Shown here: one piece after another, positions 14,601 through 50,838 of the stretch
How the letters are laid out: every line of letters begins with the position of its first letter
Position numbering within the stretch: the stretch's first letter is position 1
Source of the DNA: Fusobacterium perfoetens
GTDB taxonomy: Bacteria > Fusobacteriota > Fusobacteriia > Fusobacteriales > Fusobacteriaceae
Assembly: GCF_021531595.1 (NCBI RefSeq)
Contig: NZ_JADYUD010000002.1
Location: forward strand, 62,001-126,000
DNA length: 64,000 nt
Reading direction: 5' to 3'
Program-made: the position numbers and the translations under genes
The notes under the pieces: model-generated
What the model saw: the letters and a program-made list of their open reading frames with translations, nothing else
What the model was told of the DNA's origin: nothing
Databases searched by the model: none

Positions 14601-14730
14601 CCTGTTAGTGAAAAAATTTTCTATTTATTTTGTTCGTTTCACTAAAAATGACAAACTCGCTTTCGCTCAAACATGTCATTTTTTAGCGTTCAACTCACTG
14701 CATAAATTACGAAAATTTTTTCAATACAGG
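14601..14730 (+). repeat. Nested-palindrome intergenic element, copy A
   Basis: A 130-base element between yebC and recG. The ends are CCTGT/ACAGG, the outer arms GAAAAAATTTTC (14610-14621) and GAAAATTTTTTC (14711-14722) pair perfectly, and an inner hairpin has arms AAAAATGACA (14644-14653) and TGTCATTTTT (14674-14683). The stretch GTTCGTTTCACT and the later GTTCAACTCACT are shared nearly exactly with copy B. A 62-codon open frame across it is not credible as a gene. No transposase is present, so it is MITE-like or an RNA-structure element. Confidence 0.8.
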
Positions 14731-14827
14731 GATTTTTTATTAAATTTTAAAATTTTTAAAAATTTTATCTTAAGTATAAAAGAACAGTTATTATGAAAAA
14801 TGAAAAATTGACAAATAAGGAGGGAAA

Positions 14828-16888
14828 ATGAAAGAAGATTATAAAATTATTTTTGAAGATTTAAAAAATTTAAATTTAAAATCTCTTACATTAAAAGAAG
14901 TAGAAAAAATAAAAAATCTTAATATAAATACTCTTCATGACCTTCTTTATTATTTTCCTAGAGCTTATGACGACAGAACAAATATAAAAAAGATAGAAGA
15001 CTTGAGGGGAGATGAATATGTTGTACTTAAGGTGCAGTTTCTTGCAGTTTCAACTCCCTATATTCCTGGAAGACTAAAAATGACAAAGGCAAGGGCAACA
15101 GATGGGACAGGAGTTATTGATGTTGTGTGGTTTCAGATGCCATATCTTGCAAAATCATTAAAAATAGGAGAAGACTATATTCTTATAGGCCATATAAAAA
15201 GAGGATATAATTTTCAGATGACAAATCCAGAATATAAAAAAGTTTCTAATCAAATAGAGATGGAAAAAGGTGAAATTCTACCTGTTTATAGTACAGTTAA
15301 AAATTTTGCTCAGAACAGTCTGAGAAAGGTTCTGAAAAAAAATATATCTGCAAATAAAAAATATTTTTATGAAAATATTCCTGATGAAATTTTAAAAAAA
15401 TATAAAATAATGGAAAGACAAAAGGCTCTTAATGAAATACATTTTCCTTCAGATCATAAAAATCTTGAAGAAGCAAAAAGAAGATTTGCTATAGAAGAAC
15501 TTATGATACTTGAAATGGGAATACTTGAAAAAAAATTTATTGAGGGAGTGACTGAGGGAAAAAAATATGAACTTAGTGATAATAAGTTTCTTGTAAAAAA
15601 TTATCTTAAAAATCTTAATTTCACTCTTACAAAAGCCCAGAAAAATGTAATTACAGATATATATAAAGAGCTTAATAATGGAATTTTTATAAACCGTCTT
15701 GTGCAGGGAGATGTAGGAAGTGGAAAAACAGTTGTAGCTATGGTTCTTCTTTTATATATTATAGAAAATGGTTATCAGGGAGTTATTATGGCTCCAACAG
15801 AAATTCTTGCTGCACAGCATTATCTTTCAATAAAAGATGATTTTGAAAAATTAGGTGTAAGAACTGAGCTTTTAACAGGAAGTGTTAAAGGAAAGAAAAA
15901 GGAAGCACTTCTTCAGAGAATAAAAAATGGAGAAATTTCCCTTGTAATAGGAACTCATGCCCTTATAGAAGATAATGTGGAATTTGAAAAACTTGGTTTA
16001 ATAGTTATAGATGAGCAACATAGATTTGGTGTAGTTCAGAGGAAAAAACTCCGTGATAAAGGGATTCTTTCAAATCTTTTGGTTATGAGTGCTACTCCGA
16101 TTCCTCGTTCTTTGGCTCTTAGTATTTATGGAGACTTGGATATTTCAATAATTGATGAACTTCCTCCAGGGAGAAAAGCTATAAAGACAAAATGGATAGG
16201 AAATGAGCCTGATTTGGAAAAAGCTTATAATTTTATAGAGAAAAAACTTCATGAGGGAAGACAAGCATACTTTGTAGTTCCCCTTATTGAAGACAGTGAA
16301 AAAATGGCAGTAAAATCTATTGAGCAGTATAAATATGAGATAGAAAATAGATTTTCAGGGTATAAGATAGGAATACTTCATGGAAAAATGAAAAACTCAG
16401 AAAAAGATGAAGTTATGAAATCTTTTAAAAACAAAGAAATAGATATTCTTCTTTCAACAACAGTTGTAGAGGTTGGAATAAATGTTCCTAATGCAACAGT
16501 AATTTCAATAATAAATGCTGAAAGATTTGGGCTTTCATCTCTTCATCAGCTTCGTGGAAGAGTGGGAAGAGGGGAGCACCAGTCTTATTGTTTCCTTATT
16601 TCAAAAACAGATAATGATACATCAAAGGCAAGGCTTAGAATTATGGAAAAAACACAGGACGGATTTGAAATTGCTGAAGAAGATTTAAGACTTAGAAAAT
16701 CTGGAGAGATATTTGGTACAAGACAGACAGGTTTCAGTGATTTAAAATTTATAGATATAACACAAGATGTAAAAACAATAAAAGCTGTAAAGGATATGTG
16801 CACAGAATATCTTAAAGAAAAAAAAGGAATAATAGATAATGAATATCTGAAAATGGATATTGAAGATAAATTTAAAGAAAACTTGTAA
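14828..16888 (+). CDS. recG: ATP-dependent DNA helicase RecG
   Basis: RecG remodels stalled forks and branched DNA. The N-terminal wedge domain with an OB fold spans residues up to about 250. Walker A GDVGSGKT is at 294-301, DEQH (motif II) at 395-398, and motif VI reads QLRGRVGRGEHQS. The C-terminal RLR and GTRQTG segment is typical of RecG. The length of 686 is normal. AAGGAGGG precedes the ATG by a good distance. It is preceded by the intergenic repeat element and not by an obvious promoter. Confidence 0.96.
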   Translation: MKEDYKIIFEDLKNLNLKSLTLKEVEKIKNLNINTLHDLLYYFPRAYDDRTNIKKIEDLRGDEYVVLKVQFLAVSTPYIPGRLKMTKARATDGTGVIDVVWFQMPYLAKSLKIGEDYILIGHIKRGYNFQMTNPEYKKVSNQIEMEKGEILPVYSTVKNFAQNSLRKVLKKNISANKKYFYENIPDEILKKYKIMERQKALNEIHFPSDHKNLEEAKRRFAIEELMILEMGILEKKFIEGVTEGKKYELSDNKFLVKNYLKNLNFTLTKAQKNVITDIYKELNNGIFINRLVQGDVGSGKTVVAMVLLLYIIENGYQGVIMAPTEILAAQHYLSIKDDFEKLGVRTELLTGSVKGKKKEALLQRIKNGEISLVIGTHALIEDNVEFEKLGLIVIDEQHRFGVVQRKKLRDKGILSNLLVMSATPIPRSLALSIYGDLDISIIDELPPGRKAIKTKWIGNEPDLEKAYNFIEKKLHEGRQAYFVVPLIEDSEKMAVKSIEQYKYEIENRFSGYKIGILHGKMKNSEKDEVMKSFKNKEIDILLSTTVVEVGINVPNATVISIINAERFGLSSLHQLRGRVGRGEHQSYCFLISKTDNDTSKARLRIMEKTQDGFEIAEEDLRLRKSGEIFGTRQTGFSDLKFIDITQDVKTIKAVKDMCTEYLKEKKGIIDNEYLKMDIEDKFKENL

Positions 16889-16933
16889 TAAAATTTTATT
16901 TTTTAGAAATTGTTGTTTTCAAAAAATAATAAT

Positions 16934-16944
16934 TATGGTAAGAT
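16934..16944 (+). promoter_or_regulatory. Possible extended -10 promoter of proS
   Basis: TATGGTAAGAT contains TGn directly before a TAAGAT -10 element, 44 bases upstream of the proS start. The candidate -35 (TTGTTT at 16913) is 20 bases away, so it relies on the extended -10. No T-box leader was found. Confidence 0.35.
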
Positions 16945-16987
16945 AACAGAAGGTATAGTCAAAAATTTTAAGGAGGATAGATAAAAA

Positions 16988-18703
16988 ATGAGGTTTAGTA
17001 AATATTATGTGAAAACATTAAAAGAAAACCCAAAAGAAGCTGAAGTTGTCAGCCACCAACTGCTTTTAAGAGCCGGTATGATTAAAAAAATGGCAAGCGG
17101 AGTGTACAGCTATCTTCCCTTAGGGTATAAGACACTTAGAAAAGTAGAAAATATTGTAAGAGAAGAAATGGACAGAGCAGGTGCAGTAGAACTTCTTATG
17201 CCTGTACTTCAGCCAGCTGAAATTTGGCAGGAAAGTGGAAGATGGGATGTAATGGGGCCTGAAATGATGAGACTTAAAGACAGACACGAAAGAGATTTTG
17301 TCCTTGGGCCAACACATGAAGAAGCTATAACAGATATAGTAAGAAGCGATATATTTTCATATAAACAATTACCAATAAATTTATATCAAATTCAAACTAA
17401 ATTCAGAGATGAAAGAAGACCAAGATTTGGACTTATGAGAGGAAGAGAGTTCCTTATGAAAGATGCTTACTCTTTTGGAGTGACAAGAGAGGATCTTGAT
17501 AAAGAATTTGATAATATGCAGGAAGCATATTCAAGAGTATTTAAAAGATGTGGACTTGATTTCAGAATTGTTGATGCTGACTCAGGAGCAATTGGAGGAA
17601 GTGGATCAAAAGAATTCCATGTTATGGCAAACTCAGGAGAAGATGAATTAATATTCTGTGATTCATGTCACTATGGAGCAAATGTTGAAAAAGCTGTAAA
17701 TGTTATTACAAATCTTCCTAAAGAAGAATTAAAAGAACCAGTGCTTGTTCCTACACCAAATATTGCAAAAATAGAAGATGTAGTTGCAAACTTAGGTGTT
17801 GAAATAGAAAGAACAGTAAAAGCAATAATGTATAAAGATATGGTTACAGATGAACCTTATATGGTTTTAATAAGAGGGGACATTGAAGTAAACGAAGTAA
17901 AAGTAAAAAATTTAATTGATACAATAGATATTGCAATGCTTACTGATGAAGAACTTGAAGCTCTTGGACTTTTCAAAGGATTCATAGGACCATATGGAAT
18001 GGATTTAAAAGCTAAGGGAATAAAAGTAATAGCAGATCCATCTGTAACAGAAATTCCTAACCATACAGCAGGAGGAAACAAGCCTGATACTCACTATTTA
18101 AATGTAAATTACGGAAGAGACTATGAAGCTGATATAGTTGCTGATGTAAGAAAAGTTAAAGAGGGAGATACTTGTTCAATCTGTGGAAAACCTCTTCGTG
18201 TTGCAAGAGGAATTGAATGTGGACATATCTTTAAACTTGGTAAAAAATATTCTGAGCCTATGAAAGCAACAGTTCTTGATGAAAATGGAAAAGATATTGT
18301 TATGGAAATGGGTTGCTATGGAATAGGAGTATCAAGAACAATGGCAGCTGCTATTGAACAAAATAATGATGAAAACGGAATTATTTGGCCGTCAGCTATA
18401 GCTCCTTTTGTAGTTGATGTTATTGCAGCAAATATAAAAGATGAAGCTCAAACAAATCTTGCAGAAGAGGTTTATAAAAATCTATTAGATTCAGGAATAG
18501 AAACTATCTATGACGACAGAAACGAAAGAGCAGGATTTAAATTTAAAGATGCTGACTTAATTGGATTCCCATTTAAAGTTGTATGTGGTAAAAAATCAGC
18601 AGAAGGAATTGTTGAATTAAAAATAAGAAGAACAGGAGAAACTATTGAAACAGCAAAAGCTGATGTAGTTGCAACTGTAAAAGAATTAATGAAAAAATAT
18701 TAA
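16988..18703 (+). CDS. proS: Prolyl-tRNA synthetase
   Basis: A class II aminoacyl-tRNA synthetase of the bacterial type. Motif 1 lies in the YLPLGYKTLRK region, motif 2 is FRDERRPRFGLMRGREFLMKD near residues 139-157, and motif 3 GIGVSRTMAAAIEQ is near 444. Between them (roughly 225-400) is the inserted editing domain that clears mischarged alanyl-tRNA, and a C-terminal anticodon-binding domain follows. The length of 571 is typical. TAAGGAGGA precedes the ATG. A terminator follows the stop. Confidence 0.96.
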   Translation: MRFSKYYVKTLKENPKEAEVVSHQLLLRAGMIKKMASGVYSYLPLGYKTLRKVENIVREEMDRAGAVELLMPVLQPAEIWQESGRWDVMGPEMMRLKDRHERDFVLGPTHEEAITDIVRSDIFSYKQLPINLYQIQTKFRDERRPRFGLMRGREFLMKDAYSFGVTREDLDKEFDNMQEAYSRVFKRCGLDFRIVDADSGAIGGSGSKEFHVMANSGEDELIFCDSCHYGANVEKAVNVITNLPKEELKEPVLVPTPNIAKIEDVVANLGVEIERTVKAIMYKDMVTDEPYMVLIRGDIEVNEVKVKNLIDTIDIAMLTDEELEALGLFKGFIGPYGMDLKAKGIKVIADPSVTEIPNHTAGGNKPDTHYLNVNYGRDYEADIVADVRKVKEGDTCSICGKPLRVARGIECGHIFKLGKKYSEPMKATVLDENGKDIVMEMGCYGIGVSRTMAAAIEQNNDENGIIWPSAIAPFVVDVIAANIKDEAQTNLAEEVYKNLLDSGIETIYDDRNERAGFKFKDADLIGFPFKVVCGKKSAEGIVELKIRRTGETIETAKADVVATVKELMKKY

Positions 18704-18710
18704 TATTAAA

Positions 18711-18740
18711 GTCCTCTGAAAATTTTCAGGGGATTTTTTT
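18711..18740 (+). terminator. Rho-independent terminator after proS
   Basis: GTCCTCTGAAAA pairs with TTTTCAGGGGAT (one G-U) and is followed by seven T residues. Confidence 0.8.
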
Positions 18741-18833
18741 ATTTATATAAAATTGTATTTGTTATTTTTTCAGAAATTTTGAGCTAGAATAAAATATTTT
18801 GCTCTATATTAAAATTTTTTTTGATAAAAAGAC

Positions 18834-18862
18834 TTGATAATTTTTTTATTTGGGCATATAAT
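18834..18862 (+). promoter_or_regulatory. Strong promoter upstream of the autotransporter
   Basis: TTGATA at 18834-18839, exactly 17 bases, then a consensus TATAAT at 18857-18862. It lies 256 bases upstream of the autotransporter start, with a hairpin in between (18971-19000), so it may serve a short RNA, a long leader, or both. Confidence 0.7.
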
Positions 18863-18868
18863 AAGAAA

Positions 18869-19004
18869 AAAGATAGGCATAAAAGTGTATAAAAACTTAA
18901 AAAAATTTAAACATGAAAGATAAGAAGAATTTTTCATATTCTTTTGATACTTTTTTGTAAAAAAGCAAAAAAAAGCATGAAAATTTCTTTTCATGCTTTT
19001 AGTT
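18869..19004 (+). ncRNA. Candidate small RNA or structured leader before the autotransporter
   Basis: Starting just after the promoter above, about 135 bases contain no credible open frame and end in a hairpin with perfect 13-bp arms, AAAAGCATGAAAA (18971-18983) and TTTTCATGCTTTT (18988-19000), loop TTTC. The T-run after it is short (TTTTAGTTT), so termination would be partial. An inner AAGAAT...ATTCTT pair may form another stem. It could be a stand-alone small RNA or an attenuator in the 5' leader of the adhesin gene. The remaining bases to 19117 hold only AT-rich sequence and the AAGGGGGAA ribosome-binding site. Confidence 0.35.
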
Positions 19005-19117
19005 TAATAACTTTTAAATATTTATACAATTATGTATTATTTTTTCTTTTGGGTTAAAGAGATTTTATTTTTTTATGTGAAAACTTTTATTAAAATCAAG
19101 AAGGGGGAATTTTATTT

Positions 19118-22100
19118 ATGAATAACTATGTTAGCACAGAAAAATCATTAAAAAGATGGTTAAAAACGAGAGTAAAAGTAACAATGGCAACTGTAGTAGG
19201 ATTCCTTATTGCAGGAACTGTAGCTTTTGGAGCTGGAACTATTCCAGAAGATGGTGTATATAATAATGATGTTTTATTAAATACTTTACAAAGTACAAAA
19301 TTTGCTGTAGGACAAAATGGAAATCTTGAAATTTATTCAAATGGTAGTGTTGGACATTTATTATCAGATTTACAAGGCAATCATTCTTTATCAGGAATAC
19401 AAAATGCATTAAGTCAGCAGAATAATCATCCTGGATATGTTGTTTTAACAGGAGCTTTAGCAGGAGAGGGAAATTATGATGGACTAACTGTTGCTGCTTT
19501 AAATGTTCTTTCAGGAAAAGGAGGTTCTCTTGGTAATTTAGCAAAAGCTTTAAAGAGATTTGATACTTCAAATAAAACAGGGAATATAGAAATTGTTGGA
19601 GATACAAAAACTATTGTAGGAAATACAGAAAATTCTCCAGTTGTTTTAGGATTAATTGGTGGAGATTTTTCAGCTGGATTACTTGGAACAGTAGAGCAGT
19701 CATTAACAAGAACAGGAAATACATCAGTTACAATAAATAATGGTAATGTTTTTGGAGCAACAGTTGGAAGCACAGCGATTTCAGCAGGAAATTTAAAAGT
19801 GAAATATTCATTTTTACCTATTTCAGCAAATAATAAAGGAACAGCTACAATTAATGGAAATACTACATTAAATATAAATGGTCCAGCAAATGCAGCAGGA
19901 ATTACAGCAGGAGGACTTGCAGCAGCAATAGGTGGTACAGCAACATCAACTGTAAATGGAGATTCTAATATAAAAGTTAATTCTGTAGTTAATGCTGGTA
20001 AATTGGAAGGATTAACAGTAGGATTATTTGGTGGAGGAATGACAGTTTCTACTTTAGGTGGAAAAGCTGAAGCAAATACAACAGGAACTACAAATGTAGA
20101 AATAACTGATGGGCTTTCTGTTGGAGTAATAGGTGGAGGACTTGCAGTTTCAACTGATGCTTCTCAATATTTAAAAGATGGATTAGAAATAGGTGGTAAA
20201 AAAGGAAGAATAGATGGAAAAGGAAATTTTGTAATTGATTTAGATGGAATACCACCAATTACAGTTTCAGGACTTAAAGCTGGTGGAACATCAACAGTTA
20301 AATCTGGAGATATTAATGTAAATCTTAATGGAAAAACAGCTGCAGCTGCTGTATTAGGAAATGGTATTGCAGTATCACATCAAAATGCACCTCAAGGGGC
20401 AAAACCTACTGAAAACGATAAAATTTCAACATCAACAGTAGAAGCAAATAATATTACAGTAAATATAGATTTAACTAAAAACTTAAATGGAACAGAAATA
20501 GGAAATAATAATGTAATAGGAAAAGTTAAAGATGTATTTGTACAATTAAAAAATATTGTTGATCCAAAAGTAGGTACAGATGTAAGTAAAGTAATTGGTT
20601 CAATGCAAGGTGCAGTAGGAGCATTAAAAGATGGTGGAATAGCAGTAGGGGTAGCAGGAAATGGTATTGCAATAGCTGCTGATAAAGGAGTTTCAACAGT
20701 AAAAGCTAATAATACAACTCTTAACTTAAATGGTGGATATATTGTTGGAGCTTTAGGAAATGGTATTGCTATGAATAATGCTTGGGCAAAATCAACAGCA
20801 GAAGTAGGAAAATCTGTAATAAATATTGATGGAGAAGATACAGAAGTAATTGGAGTTTCTGGAAATGGACTTGCAGTTTATTATGGTTCAGGAAATTATG
20901 ACGGAAGCTTAAACTTTGAAGGTAAAGCTCTTGTTCAAGTAAAAGACAGTGAAATTAATATTACGAATGGTTCAGCTGATGGAGTATTTGGTGGAGGAAT
21001 TGCAATAGATGATTCTGAACTTAATACAAAAAATGCAGAAGCTATAACATCAGGAACTTCTACAATAAAGGTAACTGGTGGACTTGTTAAAGATTTTGGT
21101 TATGAACATTTAGGTGGAGTTATATCTGGTGGAACAATTGGAGGACAAGATTATGCTTCTTATTATAAAGAAGTACAAGCTCTTGGAGATGGAGTTGCTA
21201 TAGTTGGTGGAGGAGTTGCAGCAGGAAATAATGCTAAAGCTCATGTAGAAAATTCTATAATTGAAATCTCTGGTGGAAAAATAGAAGGAGATATTTTAGC
21301 AGGAGGACTTGCAACAAGAGGAGCAGAATCTACTGTTAAAGAATCTACTATTAATATTACTGGTGGAGAAATCATTGGTAGTGTTTACGGAACAGGAAAA
21401 GCAACAGAAGCTGGAAAAGGAAAATTAACAGAGGCAGGAAAAGCAACTGTAGAAAATTCTGTATTAAATATTGATGGTTACACAAACAGCATAAAAAATA
21501 TCAGTGGATTTGATAAAATTACTATCTCTAAAGCTACAGATATGAAAGTTAATAATATTCTTTTAGAAGAAGGGGAAATATTAACAAATGATGGAAAATT
21601 AACTCTAGGATTAGATAAAGATAACGCATCACTTATAACAATAAAAGGTGGAACAGCAGAAAATAATGGAACTATCGTAGTAAAATCAACACAAAAAGTT
21701 GTTTCAAATACTGATGGTAAATTTGAAAGTGCAGGTACAATTCAAATCTCTGATATAGAAAAAGATAAATTAGGAGAATTTAAAGCTTCAGATTTATTTG
21801 ATGGAAAATATACATTTACAGGAATGCTAAAAGATAAAAATGGAAATGGTATATTAACAACAGATGATATAATTACTGGTGGTGGAGATTATAACTCTGA
21901 TGAAATAAATAATGCTGGAAAAGAAAATAATGGAGAAGTAAACCTTGGAGATAAAGTTGCTTTAGTTGGAGGAGAAAAACCAATAGATGTTGGTTCAGTA
22001 AACATTTATAACGATATTACAGTAAAAAATAATGAAGAAGAAAAAGGAGTTACAATAGAAAATACTCCTATCAATATTAGTGGAGATAAACATATTACAA

Positions 22101-23989: not shown

Positions 23990-24028
23990 TAAAATAGAAC
24001 TCCTTATATCATAAATAAAAATTCTCAC

Positions 24029-24066
24029 AAAAACAGGGCTCAGAGAAATCTGAGTCCTGTTTTTTG
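24029..24066 (+). terminator. Rho-independent terminator after the autotransporter
   Basis: AAAAACAGG-G-CTCAGA and TCTGAG-T-CCTGTTTTT pair around a GAAA tetraloop and run into six T residues. Confidence 0.85.
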
Positions 24067-24091
24067 TCATTATATTTTTTATGCCACTTAT

Positions 24092-24120
24092 TTGACACAG
24101 TAGTATAGTATTCTTAGAAT
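24092..24120 (+). promoter_or_regulatory. Near-consensus promoter upstream of the two-component operon
   Basis: TTGACA at 24092-24097, 17 bases, then TAGAAT at 24115-24120 (an overlapping TATAAT begins at 24120). It drives a short unit that ends in a hairpin at 24208-24239, before the response regulator. Confidence 0.75.
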
Positions 24121-24147
24121 ATAATTATAAAAATGGAGATAGATTAA

Positions 24148-24246: not shown

Positions 24247-24297
24247 TTATAAATATAAAAGAATAAAAATCCTGCATAAAAATTTAAGGAGATGTAA

Positions 24298-26659: not shown

Positions 26660-26661
26660 AA

Positions 26662-26706: not shown

Positions 26707-26708
26707 TT

Positions 26709-38670: not shown

Positions 38671-38699
38671 TTGATTTTTTAATATTCTTCTACTATAAT
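38671..38699 (+). promoter_or_regulatory. Promoter of topA
   Basis: TTGATT at 38671-38676, 17 bases, then a consensus TATAAT at 38694-38699, about 105 bases before the topA start. Confidence 0.65.
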
Positions 38700-38803
38700 T
38701 AAACAAGAAGTTTCATTATATATGTTATAATGATATATATCAAAAAGAAAAGTTTCTGAAAAAGACAGAAAATTATAATAAAATGTGTGGAAGGGATAGA
38801 ATA

Positions 38804-41113
38804 ATGGCAAGAAAAAAATCACCAAAGAAAAACTTAGTAATAGTTGAGTCCCCAGCTAAAGCAAAAACAATAGAAAAAATATTAGGAAGTAATTTTAATG
38901 TAACAGCTTCCTTCGGACATATAAGAGATTTGCCTAAAAGCACACTTGGAGTGGATATTGAAAATGGTTTTAAGCCTAATTACTCAACTATAAGAGGAAA
39001 GGGAGAGATAACAAAAGCACTTAAAGAACTTGCAAAAAAATCAGATAAAATATATCTTGCTTCCGATCCAGATAGAGAGGGAGAGGCAATAGCATGGCAT
39101 ATAGCCCATACTTTAAAGCTTGATGAAAATGAAAATAACAGAATAGAGTTTAATGAGATTACTTCATCAGCTATAAGAGAAGCTATAAAACATCCAAGAA
39201 AGATAGATACAGATAAAGTAAATGCTCAGCAAACAAGAAGAATTTTAGATAGACTTGTAGGGTATGGTATAAGCCCTCTTTTATGGAAAACAATATCAGC
39301 TAATACAAGTGCAGGAAGAGTTCAGTCAGTTGCTCTTAAACTTATCTGTGAGCTTGAAGACACTATAAAAAACTTTGTTCCAGAAAAATTTTGGGATATT
39401 AAAGGGAAATTTAATGATAACCTTGAACTTCTTCTTTATAAAATTGATGATGAAAAGATTGATAAATTAAAAGATGAAAGTTTAGTTAAAAGAGTTCAGA
39501 CTTTGGAAAAAGAAAAATTTCTTGTAGAAAATGCTAAAGTAAACAAGAAAGTAAAAAATCCTCCTCTGCCTTTAAAAACAAGCACTCTTCAACAGCTTGC
39601 ATCATCATATCTTGGTTTTGCTGCTTCAAAAACAATGAGAGTTGCTCAGGGACTTTATGAGGGGATAAATATAGAAGGAACTCATAAAGGGCTTATAACA
39701 TATATGAGAACAGACTCAACAAGAATATCAGAAGAAGCAAAAGAAATGGCAAAAGATTATATTCTTAAGAATTTAGGAAAAGAATATTTAGGAAAGGATA
39801 CACCTAAAAAGTCTGAAAAAAAACAAGAGAATGTTCAAGATGCTCACGAAGGTATAAGACCTACTGATATAAATTATCATCCAAAAGATTTACAAAAATA
39901 CCTTGATAAAGACCAAATGAAACTTTATACACTTATCTGGGAAAGATTTTTAATTTCTCAGCTTGCACCTATGAAATATGATCAGTTTGAATTAATATGT
40001 GGTAAAGATAATGTTCAATTTAGAGGAGTTTTAAATAAAATAACTTTTGATGGATATTATAAAATATTTAAAGAAGAAGATGAAATACCTGTGGGAGATT
40101 TTCCAGATATAAAAACAGGTGATAATATGACTTTAACAAGCCTTGAAATAAAAGAAGATTATACAAAACCTCCTGCAAGACTTACAGAGTCATCTCTTAT
40201 TAAAAAACTTGAATCTGACGGAATAGGAAGACCTTCAACTTATGCAACAATTATAGATACTCTTAAGAAGAGAGAATATGTGTCTCTTAAAGGAAAAAGT
40301 TTCGTTCCTACACAGCTTGGATATGAAGTTAAATATGTTTTGAATGAGCATTTCCAAGATATAATGAATGAGAAATTCACTGCTGATCTTGAAAATAAAC
40401 TTGATGAAATAGCCGAAGGAAAAGAAAACTGGCAGAAAATTCTTGAAAATTTCTATAAGGGACTTTCTAAAAATATAGAGAAATATAAAGCTGAAGTTGA
40501 AAAAGATGAAAATAAAGTGATTGTTTCAGATGTAAAATGTCCTTGTGGAAGAGGATATATGATATTAAAGAATGGAAGATTTGGAAGATATCTTGCATGT
40601 GAACATGAAGACTGTAAAGAAAAATTTTCTCTTAAAGGAATAGATATTCCTATGGAAGATATTCAGACAGGAAAGATATATGTAAATGATATTTTAAAAG
40701 AAAAGCTTGATGCAAAAAGAGGAAAAACAACAGATGTAAGAACTCCTGAAGGAGCAGTAATGCTTCTTAAATTAGGAAGATTTGGAAGTTATCTTGAAAG
40801 TGAAAATTATGCTTCAGATAATATAAGAGAGCCACTTCCTTCAGAAATAAGAAAACTTCTTGCTCAAGGAAGTGTAGAAGAAAAAGATGGAGTAGTTCTT
40901 CTTAATGAAAAGATAAAGGCTATAAAAGATGAAGAAAATAAAATTCTTTCAAAAGCTGGAGTCTGTGAAAAATGTGGAAAGCCTTTTAAAATAGGAAGAG
41001 GAAGATGGGGAAGATTCCTTGCATGTACAGGATATCCTGAATGTAAAAATATTAAAAAAATTGATGCAGAAGGAAATATAATAGAAACAAAAGAAAAAAC
41101 AAAAAAGAAATAA
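38804..41113 (+). CDS. topA: DNA topoisomerase I
   Basis: A type IA topoisomerase that relaxes negative supercoils. The Toprim domain starts NLVIVESPAKAKTIEK and has the acidic ASDPDREGEAIAWH. The active-site Tyr is in TYMRTDSTR at about residue 300. Two zinc-ribbon-like C-terminal modules are visible (CPCGRGYMILKNGRFGRYLACEHEDC split around 582-607, and CEKCGKPFKIGRGRWGRFLAC). I start at ATG 38804, with GAAGGG 7 bases upstream; an ATG at 38783 is in frame but without a good site. The length of 769 is normal. Confidence 0.95.
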   Translation: MARKKSPKKNLVIVESPAKAKTIEKILGSNFNVTASFGHIRDLPKSTLGVDIENGFKPNYSTIRGKGEITKALKELAKKSDKIYLASDPDREGEAIAWHIAHTLKLDENENNRIEFNEITSSAIREAIKHPRKIDTDKVNAQQTRRILDRLVGYGISPLLWKTISANTSAGRVQSVALKLICELEDTIKNFVPEKFWDIKGKFNDNLELLLYKIDDEKIDKLKDESLVKRVQTLEKEKFLVENAKVNKKVKNPPLPLKTSTLQQLASSYLGFAASKTMRVAQGLYEGINIEGTHKGLITYMRTDSTRISEEAKEMAKDYILKNLGKEYLGKDTPKKSEKKQENVQDAHEGIRPTDINYHPKDLQKYLDKDQMKLYTLIWERFLISQLAPMKYDQFELICGKDNVQFRGVLNKITFDGYYKIFKEEDEIPVGDFPDIKTGDNMTLTSLEIKEDYTKPPARLTESSLIKKLESDGIGRPSTYATIIDTLKKREYVSLKGKSFVPTQLGYEVKYVLNEHFQDIMNEKFTADLENKLDEIAEGKENWQKILENFYKGLSKNIEKYKAEVEKDENKVIVSDVKCPCGRGYMILKNGRFGRYLACEHEDCKEKFSLKGIDIPMEDIQTGKIYVNDILKEKLDAKRGKTTDVRTPEGAVMLLKLGRFGSYLESENYASDNIREPLPSEIRKLLAQGSVEEKDGVVLLNEKIKAIKDEENKILSKAGVCEKCGKPFKIGRGRWGRFLACTGYPECKNIKKIDAEGNIIETKEKTKKK

Positions 41114-41174
41114 TTTGTATGGATATATAAAAGATATATTGGTTTATTATAATGGGTACATAAGAAAGGAAGCA

Positions 41175-41222
41175 ATGAACTTTCTGGAAAAATTACCATA
41201 TTATCAAAATGTTTATGAGTAG
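41175..41222 (+). other. 15-codon frame after topA, possible gene remnant or leader
   Basis: AAAGGAAG precedes ATG 41175, and the frame reads MNFLEKLPYYQNVYE before TAG. A TATAAT lies at 41148-41153. Nothing in the bases after the stop continues the frame for any length. The start signals look real but the product is tiny, so it may be the stub of a lost gene. The rest of the gap to 41312 is AT-rich with nothing recognised. Confidence 0.25.
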
Positions 41223-41312
41223 AATTTTATTTTTATCTCTCTCCCTTACATGTATAAAAATAAAGTTTATATTCATAAATACAACCATCAATTAAATGCC
41301 TAAACCCAAAAT

Positions 41313-41350
41313 AAAGGAGATGATACCCGTCATCTCCTTTTCCCTTTTTT
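41313..41350. terminator. Bidirectional terminator between topA and dapF
   Basis: AAAGGAGATGA (41313-41323) pairs perfectly with TCATCTCCTTT (41330-41340), followed by TTCCCTTTTTT on the plus strand. On the minus strand the hairpin runs into TTTATTTT. Confidence 0.8.
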
Positions 41351-41382
41351 GTAAATTTTAATATTTTAAATAGAGCTGTTGT

Positions 41383-41553
41383 AAATCTATAAAAATAAAA
41401 TTTTCTTCTGTGAAAATATTTTTTATTTATATTGTTCGTTTCACTAAAAATGACAAACTCACTTCGTTCAGACAGTGTCATTTTTCAGCGTTCAACTCAC
41501 TTCATAAATTACAAAAATATTTTCAATATTCTAAAATTTTATTTTTATAAATT
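41383..41553 (+). repeat. Nested-palindrome intergenic element, copy B
   Basis: Same architecture and orientation as copy A (14601). The outermost arms AAATCTATAAAAATAAAATTTT, here split by one mismatch (41383-41404), pair with 41533-41553. The next arms, TGAAAATATTTTT (41411-41423) and AAAAATATTTTCA (41513-41525), pair perfectly, and the inner hairpin AAAAATGACA/TGTCATTTTT (41446-41455, 41476-41485) is identical to copy A. GTTCGTTTCACT and GTTCAACTCACT are also identical to copy A. The sequence just outside, AGCTGTTGTAAA, resembles the edge of copy C. Confidence 0.8.
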
Positions 41554-41569
41554 ATAAAATGCAGTATTC

Positions 41570-42406: not shown

Positions 42407-42419
42407 TTAATCCTCCTGT

Positions 42420-43724: not shown

Positions 43725-43751
43725 ATCCATCACCTTTTAAAAATATTTGAG

Positions 43752-43788
43752 TAAAAAAAATCACAGTCTGAAATACCAAACTGTGATA
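43752..43788 (-). terminator. Rho-independent terminator after hslO
   Basis: On the minus strand TCACAGT (43780-43786 complement) pairs with ACTGTGA and runs into eight T residues (43753-43760). It separates hslO from lysA. Confidence 0.75.
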
Positions 43789-43848
43789 AAAAATATAAAA
43801 TGCAGTAGAATTTTTCACAGATAACATTTTATTTTATTAATTTTTTAA

Positions 43849-44745: not shown

Positions 44746-44760
44746 TTTATATACTCCTTC

Positions 44761-45246
44761 CTAGTAAACATCATATCTTATAATATCTTTGTATTTTTCA
44801 TATTTATTTTGTGAAATAACTTTTTTTAATATGATGTTGTTTTTTATCTTTTTATTTTTTTCTAAAAATTTTCTTATATTTTTTATTTCTTTTTTATTAA
44901 ATCCATAGTAAGATAAAATTTTATCATCAGCTTTATTAATATAAAGTGGTTTTATATTTGGAATCTCATTTATAAAAAAATATTTTTTTAATTTTTCACA
45001 TGTTTTTTCACCAATTCCACTTACACTTTCAAGTTCATTAATATTTTCTATTCCACCTTTTATATCTCTGAAACTTATTATTTTGCTTACATAGCTTTCG
45101 GCTACTCCACTTCTTAACATCTCTTCTCTGGTTGCTTTATTTATGTCAAGCTTTCCAGAAGCATTGTCACTTATTATCATTTTATATTTTGCCCCGAAAG
45201 AAAAAATGGATATTATAAAAAATAAAGTTAATATAATTTTTTTCAT
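44761..45246 (-). CDS. Exported helix-hairpin-helix protein, ComEA-like
   Basis: A 161-residue protein with a signal peptide (residues 1-18, ending FSFGA). The helix-hairpin-helix tandem LDINKATREEMLRSGV...YVSKIISFRDIKGGIENINELESVSGIGEKTCEKLKKYF (described in segments at about 33-90) fits the DNA-binding domain of ComEA. The C-terminal half (lysine-rich) resembles nothing I know. ComEA pulls DNA into the periplasm during transformation. pilT, dprA and comM elsewhere in the window support that idea. Confidence 0.75.
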   Translation of the reverse strand: MKKIILTLFFIISIFSFGAKYKMIISDNASGKLDINKATREEMLRSGVAESYVSKIISFRDIKGGIENINELESVSGIGEKTCEKLKKYFFINEIPNIKPLYINKADDKILSYYGFNKKEIKNIRKFLEKNKKIKNNIILKKVISQNKYEKYKDIIRYDVY

Positions 45247-45294
45247 AAAACCTCCGATAAAGCTGATGATTGTATAAAGAAAATGAACAGAAAA

Positions 45295-46692
45295 TTAAAA
45301 ATTAAAAAGTTCCTCTTTTTGCTTCATTCTTTCTTTCATCTCACATATATACATATATGGATCTTTAGGATTAATATATCTTACAATAGAAGCTCTTGTT
45401 TCATCAATCATTTCTACTTTTTTACTTATAGCTCCTCCTCCAAGAGCTATTGTTGACTGATTTTCTTCTATCATTTCAATATTAAATATAGATTCTTTTC
45501 CTTCTTTTGAATATCCCACATTTTCTCCCCATTCAAGACTATTTTTTTGTCTGTAAAGATAATATGGTTTTAAATTCATTTCCTCAGTAAGTTTTTCTAT
45601 TTCTGCTTCAATTTTTTCATTTTCAATAGCAGTTATTTTATATTTTTCTCTTACAAGTTTTGAACCATTTTTAACAGCAAGAGCATGGATTGTAAGGTTA
45701 TCTATATCATATTTTCTTACTTCATTAAGAGTTCTTAAAATATCTTCAACACTTTCTCCAGGAAGTCCTAAAATTAAATCCATGTTTACTATAAATCCAA
45801 GTCTTTTTATTTCTTTAAAGATTTCATCAAAGTGTTTTCTATCAAAGTTTCTGTTAAGTTCCTTTAAAATATGTTCATTGAAACTTTGAGGATTAAGACT
45901 TACTCTGTCAACTCCTTCATCTTTTAGAATTTGAAGTTTTTCAATATTTAAAGTATCTTCTCTTCCAGCTTCAAAGGTAAATTCTTTTAAATGCTCAAGG
46001 TTTATATTTTTATATACAGCGTCAATAACTCTTTTTAAATCTTTTTCAGTAAGAATGCTAGGAGTACCCCCTCCCATATAAAGAGATTCTATTCTGCATT
46101 TTTTTCCTTGAAGCATTTCTCCTGTAAGTCTTATTTCTTCAAGAAGTGTTTCTACAAATTCATCGTAGAATTTTCCAAGTTTGCTGTTGATTTCATAAGA
46201 AGCAAATGAACAATATCTGCATCTTGTAGGGCAGTATGGTATCCCTATATACATATTTACAGCCTTATCATTAAGATAAAGGCTTTCTTTTTTAACCACA
46301 TCTATAAGAAGTTTTCTTTTTTTAGGAAAAGCAAAATAAAGCTTATCAAGGATTTCATCAATTTCCTCATAAGAATATCCCATAATAAGAAAACGCCTTA
46401 CAAGTTTTGTAGGTCTTACTCCCATTAAAGCACCCCAAGGGTATACTTTTTTAAATAATTTTAAAAGTCCTGCTTTTATCATTACAATTTTTTGATCAAC
46501 CATTTTATCACTGTAATTTTTCAGAGTGAAAACAAAAGAATTTTCTCCTGAAGTAAGTTCAAGAGAGATAATATCTTTATTTTCTTCAAGAGTTCTTACA
46601 TTAAGAGTATCTATTTCCACATCAGGAAGCATAACTTTTTTAAATTCATGTATTGTATTATCTTTAATATTAAAATCTAAATTAATTTTCAC
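45295..46692 (-). CDS. hemZ: Oxygen-independent coproporphyrinogen dehydrogenase HemZ
   Basis: A radical-SAM enzyme of 465 residues. The 4Fe-4S motif CPTRCRYC holds Cys154, Cys158 and Cys161. The N-terminal extension with LMGVRPTKLVRR is specific to HemZ and absent from HemN. HemZ is thought to convert coproporphyrinogen III to protoporphyrinogen IX without oxygen, so some haem synthesis is suggested, though close family members have other roles. The start is GTG 46692 with GGAGA 5 bases upstream. Confidence 0.9.
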   Translation of the reverse strand: MKINLDFNIKDNTIHEFKKVMLPDVEIDTLNVRTLEENKDIISLELTSGENSFVFTLKNYSDKMVDQKIVMIKAGLLKLFKKVYPWGALMGVRPTKLVRRFLIMGYSYEEIDEILDKLYFAFPKKRKLLIDVVKKESLYLNDKAVNMYIGIPYCPTRCRYCSFASYEINSKLGKFYDEFVETLLEEIRLTGEMLQGKKCRIESLYMGGGTPSILTEKDLKRVIDAVYKNINLEHLKEFTFEAGREDTLNIEKLQILKDEGVDRVSLNPQSFNEHILKELNRNFDRKHFDEIFKEIKRLGFIVNMDLILGLPGESVEDILRTLNEVRKYDIDNLTIHALAVKNGSKLVREKYKITAIENEKIEAEIEKLTEEMNLKPYYLYRQKNSLEWGENVGYSKEGKESIFNIEMIEENQSTIALGGGAISKKVEMIDETRASIVRYINPKDPYMYICEMKERMKQKEELFNF

Positions 46693-46740
46693 TTAATTCT
46701 CCATATATTTTTATAAATTTTCTGTATTAAAAAATAAAAG

Positions 46741-47787
46741 TTATCTGTTTTTTCTTAAAGCTTTCACCATATTTTCATATTGAATATTGCTTATTTTATT
46801 TTCTTTATACAGATCTTTTAGACATTCTTCTTTATTAAGCATTCCGTCTCTTCCACTTATATCTATAAAAGACTGAATTTGATTTATTTTACCATTTTTT
46901 ATAAGATTTGCAATTCCTCTATTTATATAAAGCATTTCACAAAGAGGAACTCTTACTTCAGAGATACCTTCAATAAGTTCTTGATAAATTACCCCAATAA
47001 GATTTGAAGCCAGCTGTCTTTCTATAAGATTTTTTTTATTTTCAGGAAATACAGAAAGGATTCTGTCAACAGTATCAACAGCTCCATTTGTATGAAGAGT
47101 TGCAAGAACAAGATGGCCAGTTTCAGCAGCTGTAAGAGCCATTTCCAAACTTTCAGTATCTCTTAGTTCTCCAACCATTATAATATCAATATCCTGACGA
47201 AGAGCAGATCTTAATCCATCAATAAAACTTTTAGTATCCCGTCCCACTTCTCTTTGTCTTATAATGCTTTTCTTTCCTTTGAAAATATATTCAATGGGAT
47301 CTTCAATAGTTAAGATATTAAGATTTTCTTCCCTATTAAATTTTTCTATAATTCCTGCAAGGGTACTGCTTTTTCCACTTCCACTTTTTCCTGAAACTAT
47401 AATAAGCCCTTGTTTTTTTTCAAGAAGTTCATATATTTTTTTATTTATTCCAAGTTCTTCAAGAGTAAAAGGTTCTTCTCTTATAAGCCTTATACTCATG
47501 CCTATGTTTTCTTTTTCATAAAAAATATTTATACGGCAGTTAATTCCACAAGCTTTAAAAGAAAAATCAAGTTCTTTTTCTAAATTAAGAATTTTTTTAT
47601 CTTCTTCTTTAGAAACAAAAGAGGATAGGTCTTTCATATCCTCTTCTGTAAAAGCATTATATTCTTCTATTCTTATAAGTCTGCCGTTAATTCTGAACAC
47701 AGGAACTTCTCCAGCAAGAAGATGGATATCTGAGGCTTTCATCATTTTTCCTTTGTTTAAAATTTCAAAAAAAGTTTCTTTGTTCAT
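46741..47787 (-). CDS. pilT: Type IV pilus retraction ATPase PilT
   Basis: A 348-residue hexameric ATPase. The N-terminal PAS-like domain includes ASDIHLLAGEVPVFRINGRL, Walker A SGKSGSGKS is at 132-140, the Asp box is LTIEDPIEY, Walker B is DIIMVGELRD, and the His box ALTAAETGHLVLATLHTNGA follows. It powers pilus retraction, for motility or DNA uptake. No other pilus genes are adjacent, so the machine itself must be elsewhere. Neighbours hemZ and uppP are unrelated. Confidence 0.93.
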   Translation of the reverse strand: MNKETFFEILNKGKMMKASDIHLLAGEVPVFRINGRLIRIEEYNAFTEEDMKDLSSFVSKEEDKKILNLEKELDFSFKACGINCRINIFYEKENIGMSIRLIREEPFTLEELGINKKIYELLEKKQGLIIVSGKSGSGKSSTLAGIIEKFNREENLNILTIEDPIEYIFKGKKSIIRQREVGRDTKSFIDGLRSALRQDIDIIMVGELRDTESLEMALTAAETGHLVLATLHTNGAVDTVDRILSVFPENKKNLIERQLASNLIGVIYQELIEGISEVRVPLCEMLYINRGIANLIKNGKINQIQSFIDISGRDGMLNKEECLKDLYKENKISNIQYENMVKALRKNR

Positions 47788-47812
47788 AAAACCAGACTCC
47801 TTTTTTATAATT

Positions 47813-48616
47813 TTATTTTATAAGCAGCAGTACTAATATTCCAAGAATTATTCTGTAAACTCCAAAAAGTTTGAAAGTTCTTGTTTTAATATATCCCATA
47901 AACCATTTTATTACAATGTAAGCTACAATAAAAGCTGTAAATGAACCTGCAAACATAAGAGTCCATTCCTGAGAAGTAAAGCTAAGCCCACTTTTCATAA
48001 GTTTTAGAAGAGTAGCTCCAAACATTGTAGGTATTGCAAGGAAGAAAGAAAATTCTGCTGCAACACTTTTTGACAGTCCAAGAAGAAGAGCTCCTACAAT
48101 AGTAGCTCCTGATCTTGAAGTTCCTGGTATCATTGCAAGGCATTGGAAAAAACCAATAGCTAATGCTGTTTTATATGATATATCTTTAAGTGATGTTATT
48201 TTTTTTGCCTTTATTTTATCTTCAATAAAATAAAGGATTATTCCATAAACTATAAGCATTATTGCAACAATTTTTGTATTTCCCATAAACATCTCTGTAA
48301 TGTAGTCATCTGCAAGAAAACCTATTACTCCTGCTGGAATAACTCCTACAAGAATTTTACTCCAAAGAGTAACTCTTTCAATTAAAACTTCTTTATTTTT
48401 TACAAATGGGTGAATATCTCCCCAAAAATAAAGAAGAACTGAAATTATAGATCCAAACTGAACTATAACAAGAAAGTTATCCATAAAATGTTTGCTTATA
48501 TTAGGACTGTTAATAAATCTTTCAACAAGAATCATATGTCCTGTACTGCTTATTGGAAGAAATTCTGTAACTCCTTGAACTATTCCAAGAAGAATAACAA
48601 GTAAAAAAGGATTCAT
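47813..48616 (-). CDS. uppP: Undecaprenyl-diphosphatase
   Basis: A 267-residue integral membrane phosphatase (BacA/UppP) that recycles undecaprenyl pyrophosphate for wall and LPS synthesis; it can give bacitracin tolerance. GVTEFLPISSTGH at 15-27 and PGTSRSG near 164-170 are the two catalytic motifs. About seven to eight hydrophobic segments are visible. It lies between pilT and rfaD, in the envelope-gene run. Confidence 0.96.
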   Translation of the reverse strand: MNPFLLVILLGIVQGVTEFLPISSTGHMILVERFINSPNISKHFMDNFLVIVQFGSIISVLLYFWGDIHPFVKNKEVLIERVTLWSKILVGVIPAGVIGFLADDYITEMFMGNTKIVAIMLIVYGIILYFIEDKIKAKKITSLKDISYKTALAIGFFQCLAMIPGTSRSGATIVGALLLGLSKSVAAEFSFFLAIPTMFGATLLKLMKSGLSFTSQEWTLMFAGSFTAFIVAYIVIKWFMGYIKTRTFKLFGVYRIILGILVLLLIK

Positions 48617-48639
48617 TTTTTATTTTCCTCCCAAGTATA

Positions 48640-49638
48640 TTATAGATAAGGATCTTCTTTAGAAAGATAGTTTACAACATAATCATAAACTCCCTCTTCA
48701 AGAGTATGGAATTTTTTAGTATATCCTGCTTTTTTAACTTTATCCATTTTTGCTTCAGTAAAGTATTGGTATTTTCCTCTTAAGTCTTCAGGCATAGGAA
48801 CAAAAGTAATTACATATTCTTCTTTTAAATCAGGGTTTCCAGAAGCTGCTCTCATTGTTGCCATAGAAAGATCTTTAAAGCTTCTTGCTTTTCCTGTTCC
48901 TACATTATATACTCCTGAAGGAACTTCTTCTGTTAAGAAATAATATAATAAATCAACAACATCTTTTATGTATACGAAATCTCTTAGTTGTTCTCCATCA
49001 GCATACCCTTCTTTATGAGATTTGAAAAGTTTAACTCCTCCATCAGCTTTATATTGGTTGAAAGTATGGAATACCATAGATGCCATTCTTCCTTTGTGGT
49101 ATTCTTGAGGGCCATAAACATTAAAGAATTTACAGCTTATCCATTGTTTTGGAGTCTTAGTTTGTTTGAAAGACCAGTCATCAAAAAGTTTTTTAGAATA
49201 TCCATATTTATTTAAAGGAAGAAGCTTATGGAATTGTTCAACAGTGATATCGTCATCATATCCTTGTTCTCCAGCACCATATGTAGCAGCAGAAGAAGCA
49301 TTAACAAAGTTTATATTGTGATCAGCACAGAATTCCCATAATTTTTTAGTATAACCATAGTTATTACTCATTAAGAAATCTCCGTCTCTTTCTGTTGTTG
49401 CTGAGCAAGCACCAAAGTGCGCTACTCCTGTAATTTTAGCTGCATTTTTCTCATCAGCAAGCCATTCAAAAAGGTTATCTCTGTCAACCCAGTCAGCATA
49501 ATCTCTTTTTCTTAAATTAAGCCATTTATCTTCTGTTCTCATTTTATCAACAGCTAATATGTCGTTGATTCCCATTTCATTTAATTTCCATATAAACGCA
49601 CTTCCGATAAAACCGGCAGCACCAGTAACAATAATCAT
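48640..49638 (-). CDS. rfaD: ADP-L-glycero-D-manno-heptose 6-epimerase
   Basis: A short-chain dehydrogenase-type epimerase of 332 residues that makes ADP-L-glycero-D-manno-heptose for the LPS inner core. The NADP-binding GAAGFIGS is at 6-13, ASSAATYGAGEQGYDDD carries the Ser/Thr, and YGYSKK the catalytic Tyr and Lys. KFFNVYGPQEYHKGRMASM is a family block. GGAGG precedes the ATG. With kdsC it indicates a heptose/Kdo-type LPS. Confidence 0.94.
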   Translation of the reverse strand: MIIVTGAAGFIGSAFIWKLNEMGINDILAVDKMRTEDKWLNLRKRDYADWVDRDNLFEWLADEKNAAKITGVAHFGACSATTERDGDFLMSNNYGYTKKLWEFCADHNINFVNASSAATYGAGEQGYDDDITVEQFHKLLPLNKYGYSKKLFDDWSFKQTKTPKQWISCKFFNVYGPQEYHKGRMASMVFHTFNQYKADGGVKLFKSHKEGYADGEQLRDFVYIKDVVDLLYYFLTEEVPSGVYNVGTGKARSFKDLSMATMRAASGNPDLKEEYVITFVPMPEDLRGKYQYFTEAKMDKVKKAGYTKKFHTLEEGVYDYVVNYLSKEDPYL

Positions 49639-49685
49639 TATTTTACCTCCGTTATTTAGCCTTATATATAAATTCTAGCTGTTTT

Positions 49686-50540
49686 TTACAATAAATTCAA
49701 ACTTTTTTTCATATTCTCATATTCTGAAAGATTAAGTCCCGTATCTCCAAGAGAAACTTCAACTCTGTTTCCTCCATGGAAATCTGATCCTCCTGTTATG
49801 ATAAGGTTGTATTTTTCAGCAAGTTTTTTATAATATTCCTTATCTTTTTGTGAAAAACTGTAATAATTAACTTCAAGTCCTTTTAAACCATGTTTTATAA
49901 GTTCTGAAATAAGTTTTTCAACCTCATCTTTGTTTTCAGTTATAAGCTTAGGATGAGCAAGAGAAACAAAAGCACCATTTCTCATAAGAATATCAACTGC
50001 ATCGGCAGGTTTATAGTCTCTTTTTTCTACAAAGGCTGCTCCTCCTTTTCCAAGATAATTTTTAAAAGCATCAGATTTACAGCTTACATATCCTTTTTTT
50101 AGCATAATTTCTGCAAAATGTGCTTTGCTTATAACATTTCCTTGAACAATGGTTTTAAGTTCATCCATAGTTACAGGAAGATTTAAATCAGCCAGTTTTT
50201 TTATAATTTTTTCGTTTCTTTCATTTCTTATATCAGCAATTCTGTCAAGTTCTTTTAAAAAGTCTGTATCATCAAGATTTAAAAAGTATCCTAAAATATG
50301 AACATCTTTTCCATTAAGATTGCATGACATTTCAATGCCTTTTATAATTTCAATATTATATTTTGCTTCATATTCTTTTATCTTCTTACTGTCTTTAAGT
50401 CCATCCACAGTATCGTGATCTGTTACAGCAAGAACTTTAAGCCCTTTTTCAGAAGCCATTTTAACAAGTTCTTCTACTGTATATGTACCATCAGAATTTA
50501 CTGTGTGAGTGTGTAAATCTGCAATTACTTTATTTTCCAT
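49686..50540 (-). CDS. PHP-domain phosphoesterase
   Basis: A 284-residue PHP-superfamily hydrolase. Metal ligands are in DLHTHTVNSDGT at 8-19, TDHDTVDG at 40-47, GIEMS, and VSLAHPKL and GGSDFHGG near the end. Relatives (YciV, RNase AM) hydrolyse 3',5'-nucleoside bisphosphates or trim RNA 5' ends. The substrate here is not fixed by sequence. The 292-base region upstream of it holds repeat element C. Confidence 0.88.
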   Translation of the reverse strand: MENKVIADLHTHTVNSDGTYTVEELVKMASEKGLKVLAVTDHDTVDGLKDSKKIKEYEAKYNIEIIKGIEMSCNLNGKDVHILGYFLNLDDTDFLKELDRIADIRNERNEKIIKKLADLNLPVTMDELKTIVQGNVISKAHFAEIMLKKGYVSCKSDAFKNYLGKGGAAFVEKRDYKPADAVDILMRNGAFVSLAHPKLITENKDEVEKLISELIKHGLKGLEVNYYSFSQKDKEYYKKLAEKYNLIITGGSDFHGGNRVEVSLGDTGLNLSEYENMKKSLNLL

Positions 50541-50570
50541 TTCTTTTTTCCCTCTCTTCTTTATCTCAAA

Positions 50571-50838
50571 TAAAAAATAAAAGGCTGTTGTAAACTATAA
50601 ACTTATAAAAAAAATTATTTTTATAAGTTTTTCCTGCATTGAAAAATAGTTTGTGATTAATGCAGTGAACAAAACATGAAAATTCATATGTTTGAGGGCA
50701 AAGCCCGAGTTTATGAATTTTAGTTTTGAGAACAACATTAATAGAACTATTTTTCGCCAGCAGGACAGTTTTCTTTTGGTTCGTTTTCTTTGACTGTACA
50801 AAGAAAATGAACAACAACAGCCTTATTTTTTATTAGTT
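50571..50838. repeat. Terminal inverted repeats enclosing element C
   Basis: The left arm TAAAAAATAAAAGGCTGTTGT (one base over from its partner, given here as 50571-50591) pairs with ACAACAGCCTT plus ATTTTTTATTA at about 50813-50838. Each arm is a GC stem followed by a T-run when read outward, so the pair looks like a bidirectional rho-independent terminator with about 220 bases in its loop. Inside the left arm there is also an AAACTTATAAAAA/TTTTTATAAGTTT hairpin (50599-50631). Confidence 0.65.
50633..50764 (-). repeat. Nested-palindrome intergenic element, copy C
   Basis: This 132-base element lies in reverse orientation to copies A and B. Ends are CCTGC/GCAGG, outer arms GAAAAATAGTT (50641-50651) and AACTATTTTTC (50745-50755) pair perfectly, and inner arms AAAATTCATA (50679-50688) and TATGAATTTT (50712-50721) pair perfectly. 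The loop has its own GGGC/GCCC stem. Both arm sequences differ from copies A and B, but pairing is kept. On the minus strand it is preceded by a hairpin (50780-50813) related to 14556-14587. Two overlapping open frames here are not credible genes. Confidence 0.75.

Follow-up and report, generated by a model that had tools for sequence, protein, structure and literature searches.

Nested palindromic repeats at gene 3' ends in Fusobacterium perfoetens, with arms probably kept matched by template switching

A 64,000-nucleotide stretch of the Fusobacterium perfoetens genome (contig NZ_JADYUD010000002.1, positions 62,001 to 126,000; hereafter the window, whose own numbering we use) carries three intergenic nested palindromes, A, B and C, singled out in an earlier note because their arms change in sequence and remain perfectly paired. 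We consider them members of a non-coding palindromic interspersed repeat family that occupies gene 3' ends and whose arms are probably matched by template switching. The element itself is best read as non-autonomous, maintained at the DNA level and lodged in terminators. Direct reading located every arm that the earlier note had named, each complementary to its partner, and A, B and C are the only covariance-model matches inside the window. Below, G000 is the genome carrying the window (a draft assembly in 36 contigs), other G-numbers are further genomes, and L-numbers are loci.

The covariance-model search proposed in that note, using a model built from 26 copies, returned 31 matches in G000, and searching that genome with the DNA of A, B and C led to about 30 further places. 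Members are non-coding, range from about 70 to 220 bp, and share a core consisting of a GTTC block, an inner arm, an apex of the form AACTC-hairpin-CTCAAACA, the second inner arm, a GTTC...CACT block and the outer arm. A, B and C had been taken for three copies of one shape, which holds for the core, but they belong to two types. In type i (B and some 15 others), the core is enclosed by two further layers, 1 and 0, and then by an outermost stem, such as TTTTTTATAGAGCTGTTG/CAACAGCTCTATAAAAAA in L013, that looks like a bidirectional intrinsic terminator. In several copies, among them L018 with AAAATGGGACTGTT/AACAGTCCCATTTT, the outermost arms at the 3' end of a gene form a GC-richer stem that a T tract follows, and we regard the outermost stem as a putative transcription terminator. 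In type ii (A, C, L010, L017, L024 and L029-L031), the 5' part opens with the hairpin TTTCTTTG-loop-CAAAGAAA; an A-rich linker and then a CCTGC...GCAGG frame follow. Partial forms also occur in G000, namely layer 0 alone (L258, L261-L263), layers 0 and 1 together (L254, L256), the frame without the core (L033) and the hairpin alone (L034, L036); in L032 the core is replaced, and in L030 the hairpin is interrupted by a second palindrome.

Copy number is patchy among congeners, in which respect the element resembles a mobile sequence. Specifically, the covariance model finds 31, 30, 4, 3, 0, 0 and 0 copies in seven congeneric genomes, which indicates lineage-specific spread, and the congener with 30 matches (G006) carries a distinct, independent subfamily. 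Two separate observations were made on palindromes in G000. A second palindromic insert (GAACAAA, a stem, then TTCGTCGG...CTAGTCGTC) lies at about 470-560 of L030 and 537-636 of L032 (G000:C3 near 76800 and C13 near 28850); its stem differs between the two loci and is complementary in both, and the insert carries CGTC motifs. At L264 (G000:C10:72750-73041), the end of a contig holds two layer-0 palindromes in opposite orientation, which together fold as a single very long hairpin, and palindromes may have broken the assembly there, at C18:1 and at C3:180874.

The pairing of the nested palindrome is far beyond chance. Across 26 aligned G000 copies, 98.5% of 907 pair cells pair, a figure that falls to 42-53% when partners are slid by one to three columns. 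In the same alignment, 19 of 35 pairs have changed on both sides, and 86 two-sided cell changes were observed against 19.9 in shuffles, none of 500 shuffles reaching the observed value, although the copies are related and the cells are not independent events. These changes are spread over the outer arm, the GTTC block and the inner arm, with replacements such as ATAGTT/AACTAT, ATCTG/CAGAT, GGC/GCC and GAT/ATC. One-sided changes are scarce by comparison: 1 against 86 two-sided in G000 and 12 against 94 in G006.

Compensatory changes of this kind are usually taken as the strongest sign of a functional RNA. In this family they are frequent, yet a strand test points to DNA. RNA tolerates G·U pairs and not A·C, a strand asymmetry that DNA does not have. 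Within the arms, the G·U to A·C count is 2:4 in G000 and 12:11 in G006, or 14:15 combined, whereas the RNase P RNAs of 26 genomes belonging to the same family, put through the same alignment and count, give 186:7 (Fisher p = 1e-10); identity is similar in the compared alignments, at 78% for RNase P and 75% and 80% for the elements. One-sided to two-sided changes likewise stand at 13:180 in the elements versus 88:195 in RNase P. Isolated arm mismatches scored without a pairing model amount to 43 G·T and 40 A·C over 62 copies, counts in which conserved bulges recur. RNA selection is marked by G·U outnumbering A·C and by an excess of one-sided changes. Neither mark is present in the element arms of G000 and G006; G·U is no commoner than A·C, unlike in RNase P, and upkeep of the nested palindrome at the RNA level is therefore unlikely. 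The proposal that the paired substitutions reflect selection on folding is borne out as to the substitutions, but not as to RNA-level selection on the nested palindrome; maintenance of pairing at the DNA level is the best-supported reading. The family could be used as a test case for telling template-switch covariation from RNA selection.

Comparison of two sister species, G001 and G003, which share about 93% identity over the compared loci and supply all of the orthologous evidence, revealed changes of the element in place. The element is inverted at one locus that both have (L164/L161), whereas at two others (L168/L165 and L173/L170) it keeps its orientation; at a further locus (L160/L209), the core is missing in G003 and the remaining outer arms are inverted. 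Further, the left arm of L257, a short copy, is the reverse complement of its own right arm, including bases that normally occur only on the right. Template switching between inverted repeats is reported to yield two outcomes, arm homogenisation and spacer inversion (PMC8604942), and, it has been argued, can produce compensatory pair changes in a single event (PMC8794818). Both marks are present here, homogenisation in L257 and inversion between close relatives in L164/L161 and L160/L209. Inversion, inversion with core loss and arm copying together point to DNA copying that matches the arms without any need for selection on folding.

The positions of the elements tie the family to intrinsic terminators. 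In 30 contexts from four genomes, based on simple open-reading-frame calls, 14 copies lie between convergent genes, 16 between codirectional genes and none between divergent genes, often 0-30 nt from a stop codon; with an orthologous pair counted once, the contrast is 13 convergent versus 0 divergent (p = 2e-4). Selection against insertions into promoters could contribute to the absence from divergent gaps. Among sister-species orthologs of short copies, some replace a plain intrinsic terminator or sit in its loop: G001 has AAAGAGCTTTAAATAATTTTTTTAAAGCTCTTT at the site where G003 carries L216, it has the bare hairpin GACTGTTACA...TGTAACAGTC at L221, where G003 has an additional 33 nt of element in the loop, and it is without about 60 inner nucleotides at L218. 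These differences may represent gain or loss. In this family, nested palindromes and their growth are thus linked with intrinsic terminators.

We propose that the repeat would spread in certain genomes and settle where genes end, replacing intrinsic terminators or lodging in their loops. During replication, a nascent strand at the hairpin or cruciform would switch template between the arms, so that a change in either arm would be transferred to its partner in a single step and the inside of the element would at times be inverted or deleted. We infer that this switching, and not selection for a DNA hairpin, causes the matching of the arms. A putative trans-acting enzyme would spread the element, and would probably recognise conserved unpaired bases of the folded single strand, namely the AACTC...CTCAAACA apex, GTTC, CACT, TTAC and CAATGC.

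Relatives extend beyond the genus. The pattern of the upstream hairpin occurs in at least 120 stretches from Bacteroidota, Bacillota, Desulfobacterota and other phyla, and several of these hairpins precede a nested palindrome with the same apex. A 20-mer of the apex was found in 22 of 98 Fusobacteriota genomes, spread over 9 of the 29 genera; in the phylum to which an Acinetobacter locus belongs, it was found in 16 of 386 genomes, with 56 matches where the reversed control gave 1. Complementarity links the hairpin loop with a segment past the A-rich linker, with a mean longest match of 3.33 versus at most 2.69 in 500 shuffles; a match of at least 5 occurs in 20 of 84 distinct loci versus at most 9 in shuffles, these loci being related and not independent. 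Selenomonas-type loops of 3 nt are without this complementarity. Compared with L029 across genera, the 3' half shows significant similarity in L275 and L086 but not in a Thermodesulfobacteriota copy. Judged from sequence, common descent across phyla is likely in part, and convergence on a simple layout is possible. More tentatively, these relatives might make up a cross-phylum mobile class in which a 5' H-type pseudoknot hairpin and a nested palindrome whose AACTC...CTCAAACA apex is fixed would be read, through their unpaired bases, as folded single-stranded DNA by a putative enzyme, the stems being left free to change by template switching. No Rfam entry covers the relatives in several phyla.

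Several observations accompany this wider distribution. One Selenomonas genome holds four loci (L306, L310, L314 and L316) with the same apex and near-perfect nested hairpins of more than 200 nt, at -100 to -133 kcal/mol. In Kordia and Leeuwenhoekiella, the TTTCTTTG hairpin with a complementary loop occurs in several copies per genome (L043, L048, L050, L058 and L102) and leads into another 3' part, long and conserved, that lacks the AACTC apex. A phage origin was rejected, the apex motif occurring in only six viral contigs.

Some results weigh against template switching as the whole account. Arm-to-arm recombination could also invert the inside of an element, and the coreless orthologs can be read as deletions. 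No mobilising enzyme was found in the searched material, where the transposase search covered PF01797 only, no target-site duplication was noticed, and no full-length copy had a clean empty counterpart; at the sites of A and B in congeners, the flanking genes are not syntenic and no footprint was seen. Loop and linker vary together across phyla in stretches of 3-6 bp, which could hardly come from arm copying, and therefore single-strand folding, of RNA or single-stranded DNA, matters for the 5' hairpin module. Finally, conserved unmatched positions persist across subfamilies, less clearly across phyla; homogenisation is thus incomplete, and some selection or recognition must hold these positions.

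In an alternative that we regard as possible but rather improbable, a protein (a transposase, a recombinase, or a replication or nucleoid factor) must recognise the folded single strand or cruciform and arm changes are compensated by selection on DNA folding, as proposed for repetitive extragenic palindromes (REPs) and attC sites. It would accommodate the missing RNA strand bias, the conserved unpaired bases at the apex and in bulges in several genera, the patchy amplification and the H-type loop/linker pairing that is kept with changed sequence. However, it needs two successive mutations by way of a disfavoured mismatch, and such intermediates are near absent (1 one-sided versus 86 two-sided changes); alone, it explains neither inversion in place nor arm copying, and G000 has no Y1 transposase. 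The very high stability of the folds, the position just past stop codons at gene ends and the pseudoknot-like 5' module, with its complementarity beyond shuffles, would also suit a functional structured RNA (an element of the 3' untranslated region, an attenuator or a small RNA) whose stems covary under RNA-level selection. We consider this very improbable, given the G·U and A·C counts set against RNase P RNA, the occurrence of the element in either orientation relative to orthologous flanking genes, the absence of any Rfam match even at E = 1, and a cross-phylum hairpin that lies about as often on the strand of the upstream gene (46 loci) as on the other (47 loci). Rfam gave no match at the gathering threshold in the window, none at E<=1 in 14500-14850 and none by position on elements at 13 loci.

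Descent alone, with the copies as decaying miniature inverted-repeat transposable elements (MITEs) of a DDE insertion sequence, arms as terminal inverted repeats and no continuing process, is an improbable explanation. The copies are multiple, non-coding and ended by inverted repeats, as it predicts, but neutral decay would leave unpaired, one-sided changes, whereas pairing stays at 98.5%. Copies in relatives, numerous paired changes and the lack of an Rfam match speak against the refuting outcomes that the note had named. No coding insertion sequence with the element's ends was recognised in the searches of G000 with A, B and C, whose matches (palindromic copies, partial arms and one non-element repeat) were not individually checked for transposase genes, and such an element could be concealed by the draft state of the assembly. 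By inspection, type i flanks are complementary and not directly repeated, and a direct duplication at the flanks was not noticed. Arms as duplicated palindromic targets were ruled out, since those of C and L023 are complementary yet not self-palindromic. An invertible switch, in which a site-specific recombinase flips the element to control a neighbouring gene, is barely credible. It would explain the inversion in place at one sister-species locus and the inverted outer arms at another, but arms that differ from copy to copy offer no common recombination site, and copies lie at gene 3' ends, not at promoters.

Among known systems, the element works like REP- or MITE-type elements but fails REP membership. 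REP and REPIN elements are extragenic, high-copy sequences; REPs measure 20-40 bp, are marked by a GTAG tag and are mobilised by a cognate Y1 transposase, RAYT (PMC2817692, PMC3116915). The family described here shares with them high-copy extragenic palindromes, complementarity kept in variants and species-specific amplification, but its nested layers span 70-220 bp. No GTAG head was seen at arm ends in the copies read, and a profile search for the Y1/RAYT transposase PF01797, positive in control genomes, gave no match in G000 or five congeners. A RAYT-mobilised REP is thus ruled out for G000, where PF01797 and the tag are absent and the size is wrong. The only Y1 transposase found in the genus is L253 (G006:C14:7539-7901); G006 holds about 30 copies, and G000 has 31 without Y1.

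CGTC-tagged repeats are short single hairpins without a dedicated transposase, described with no mention of Fusobacteria (PMC3733652). They are likewise palindromic without a dedicated transposase, and differ in having neither nested layers nor a pseudoknot module. ERIC is an enterobacterial element with a fixed conserved palindrome. ERIC, RU and other enterobacterial miniature elements have been described as small mobile intergenic sequences of 103-168 bp, likened to MITEs (PMC2759123). By description only, our elements differ from ERIC in that arms are replaced wholesale while the layout is kept. Hairpins shaped by template switching (PMC8794818, PMC8604942) offer one-step compensatory changes, arm homogenisation and inversion of the loop or spacer. 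They were described for RNA genes and yeast coding repeats, whereas here the family is dispersed and intergenic, and a stretch of about 200 bp is inverted. Integron attC sites, which act as folded single-stranded DNA, are imperfect palindromes in which certain unpaired bases are conserved and the stems vary. The elements share these traits of sequence layout; they differ in being solitary at gene ends, without a cassette array, and no R-box layout of the form GTTRRRY/RYYYAAC was seen by eye, no integrase search having been made. Literature searches, which lay mostly outside subscription papers, found no description of the motifs or of fusobacterial palindromic repeats.

In the window, copy A is a whole type ii element on the plus strand (14556..14731, by sequence and fold), with an upstream hairpin, an A-rich linker, a CCCTG...CAGGG frame and the nested palindrome. 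Its hairpin 1, GTTACTTTCTTTG-CTTGTA-CAAAGAAAGTAAC, followed by the linker CAAAGAAA, occupies 14556..14595, is recognised by sequence, fold and pattern matches across phyla, and is common to L010, L017, L024 and L029; the loop GTA could pair with the following TAC, a weak match of 3 bp. The nested palindrome, with the apex AACTC...CTCAAACA, spans 14610..14722 according to the sequence and the 26-copy alignment, with outer arms GAAAAAATTTTC (14610-14621) and GAAAATTTTTTC (14711-14722) and inner arms AAAAATGACA (14644-14653) and TGTCATTTTT (14674-14683). The note had placed the arms of all three copies correctly, but A and C begin further out, at their upstream hairpins (14556 for A and 50812 on the minus strand for C), and B has a further arm pair outward, its partly decayed outermost arm lying near 41373.

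Copy C, a whole type ii element on the minus strand (50633..50812) with L029, L030 and L031 as relatives, comprises hairpin 1, the linker, the CCTGC...GCAGG frame and the nested palindrome. Hairpin 1, GTTCATTTTCTTTG-TACAGT-CAAAGAAAACGAAC, and its linker CAAAAGAAA lie at 50765..50812 (minus). Here, an H-type pseudoknot is predicted, ACTGT at 50769-50765 being complementary to the loop ACAGT at 50797-50793 on the minus strand; covarying counterparts of this loop/linker pairing are GCAG/CTGC in L010 and L024 and CGAG/CTCG in L030. The nested palindrome (50641..50755, minus; by sequence and the 26-copy alignment) has outer arms GAAAAATAGTT (50755-50745) and AACTATTTTTC (50651-50641) and inner arms AAAATTCATA (50721-50712) and TATGAATTTT (50688-50679). 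It does carry the GGGC/GCCC tip, which is not peculiar to C and is also found in L016 and L017.

Copy B is a whole type i element on the plus strand (41373..41567, by sequence and fold), in which an outermost terminator-like arm, with its right side partly decayed, precedes layer 0, layer 1 and the core; the layers were recognised by comparison with the coreless copies L254-L263. The left arm of layer 0, ATCTATAAAAATAAAATTTT (41386..41405), pairs with 41531-41551 in the hairpin that stands alone at L258, L261, L262 and L263. The layer 1 arms, TGAAAATATTTTT (41411-41423) and AAAAATATTTTCA (41513-41525), enclose the core and, together with layer 0, match the coreless L254 and L256. The core itself (41431..41508, by sequence and the 26-copy alignment) reads GTTCGTTTCACT, inner arm, AACTC apex, inner arm, GTTCAACTCACT, and its inner arm is identical to that of A. 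To the left of B, about 250 bp (window 41104-41353) outside the palindrome family are repeated at G000:C22:9364-9605 with 87% identity.

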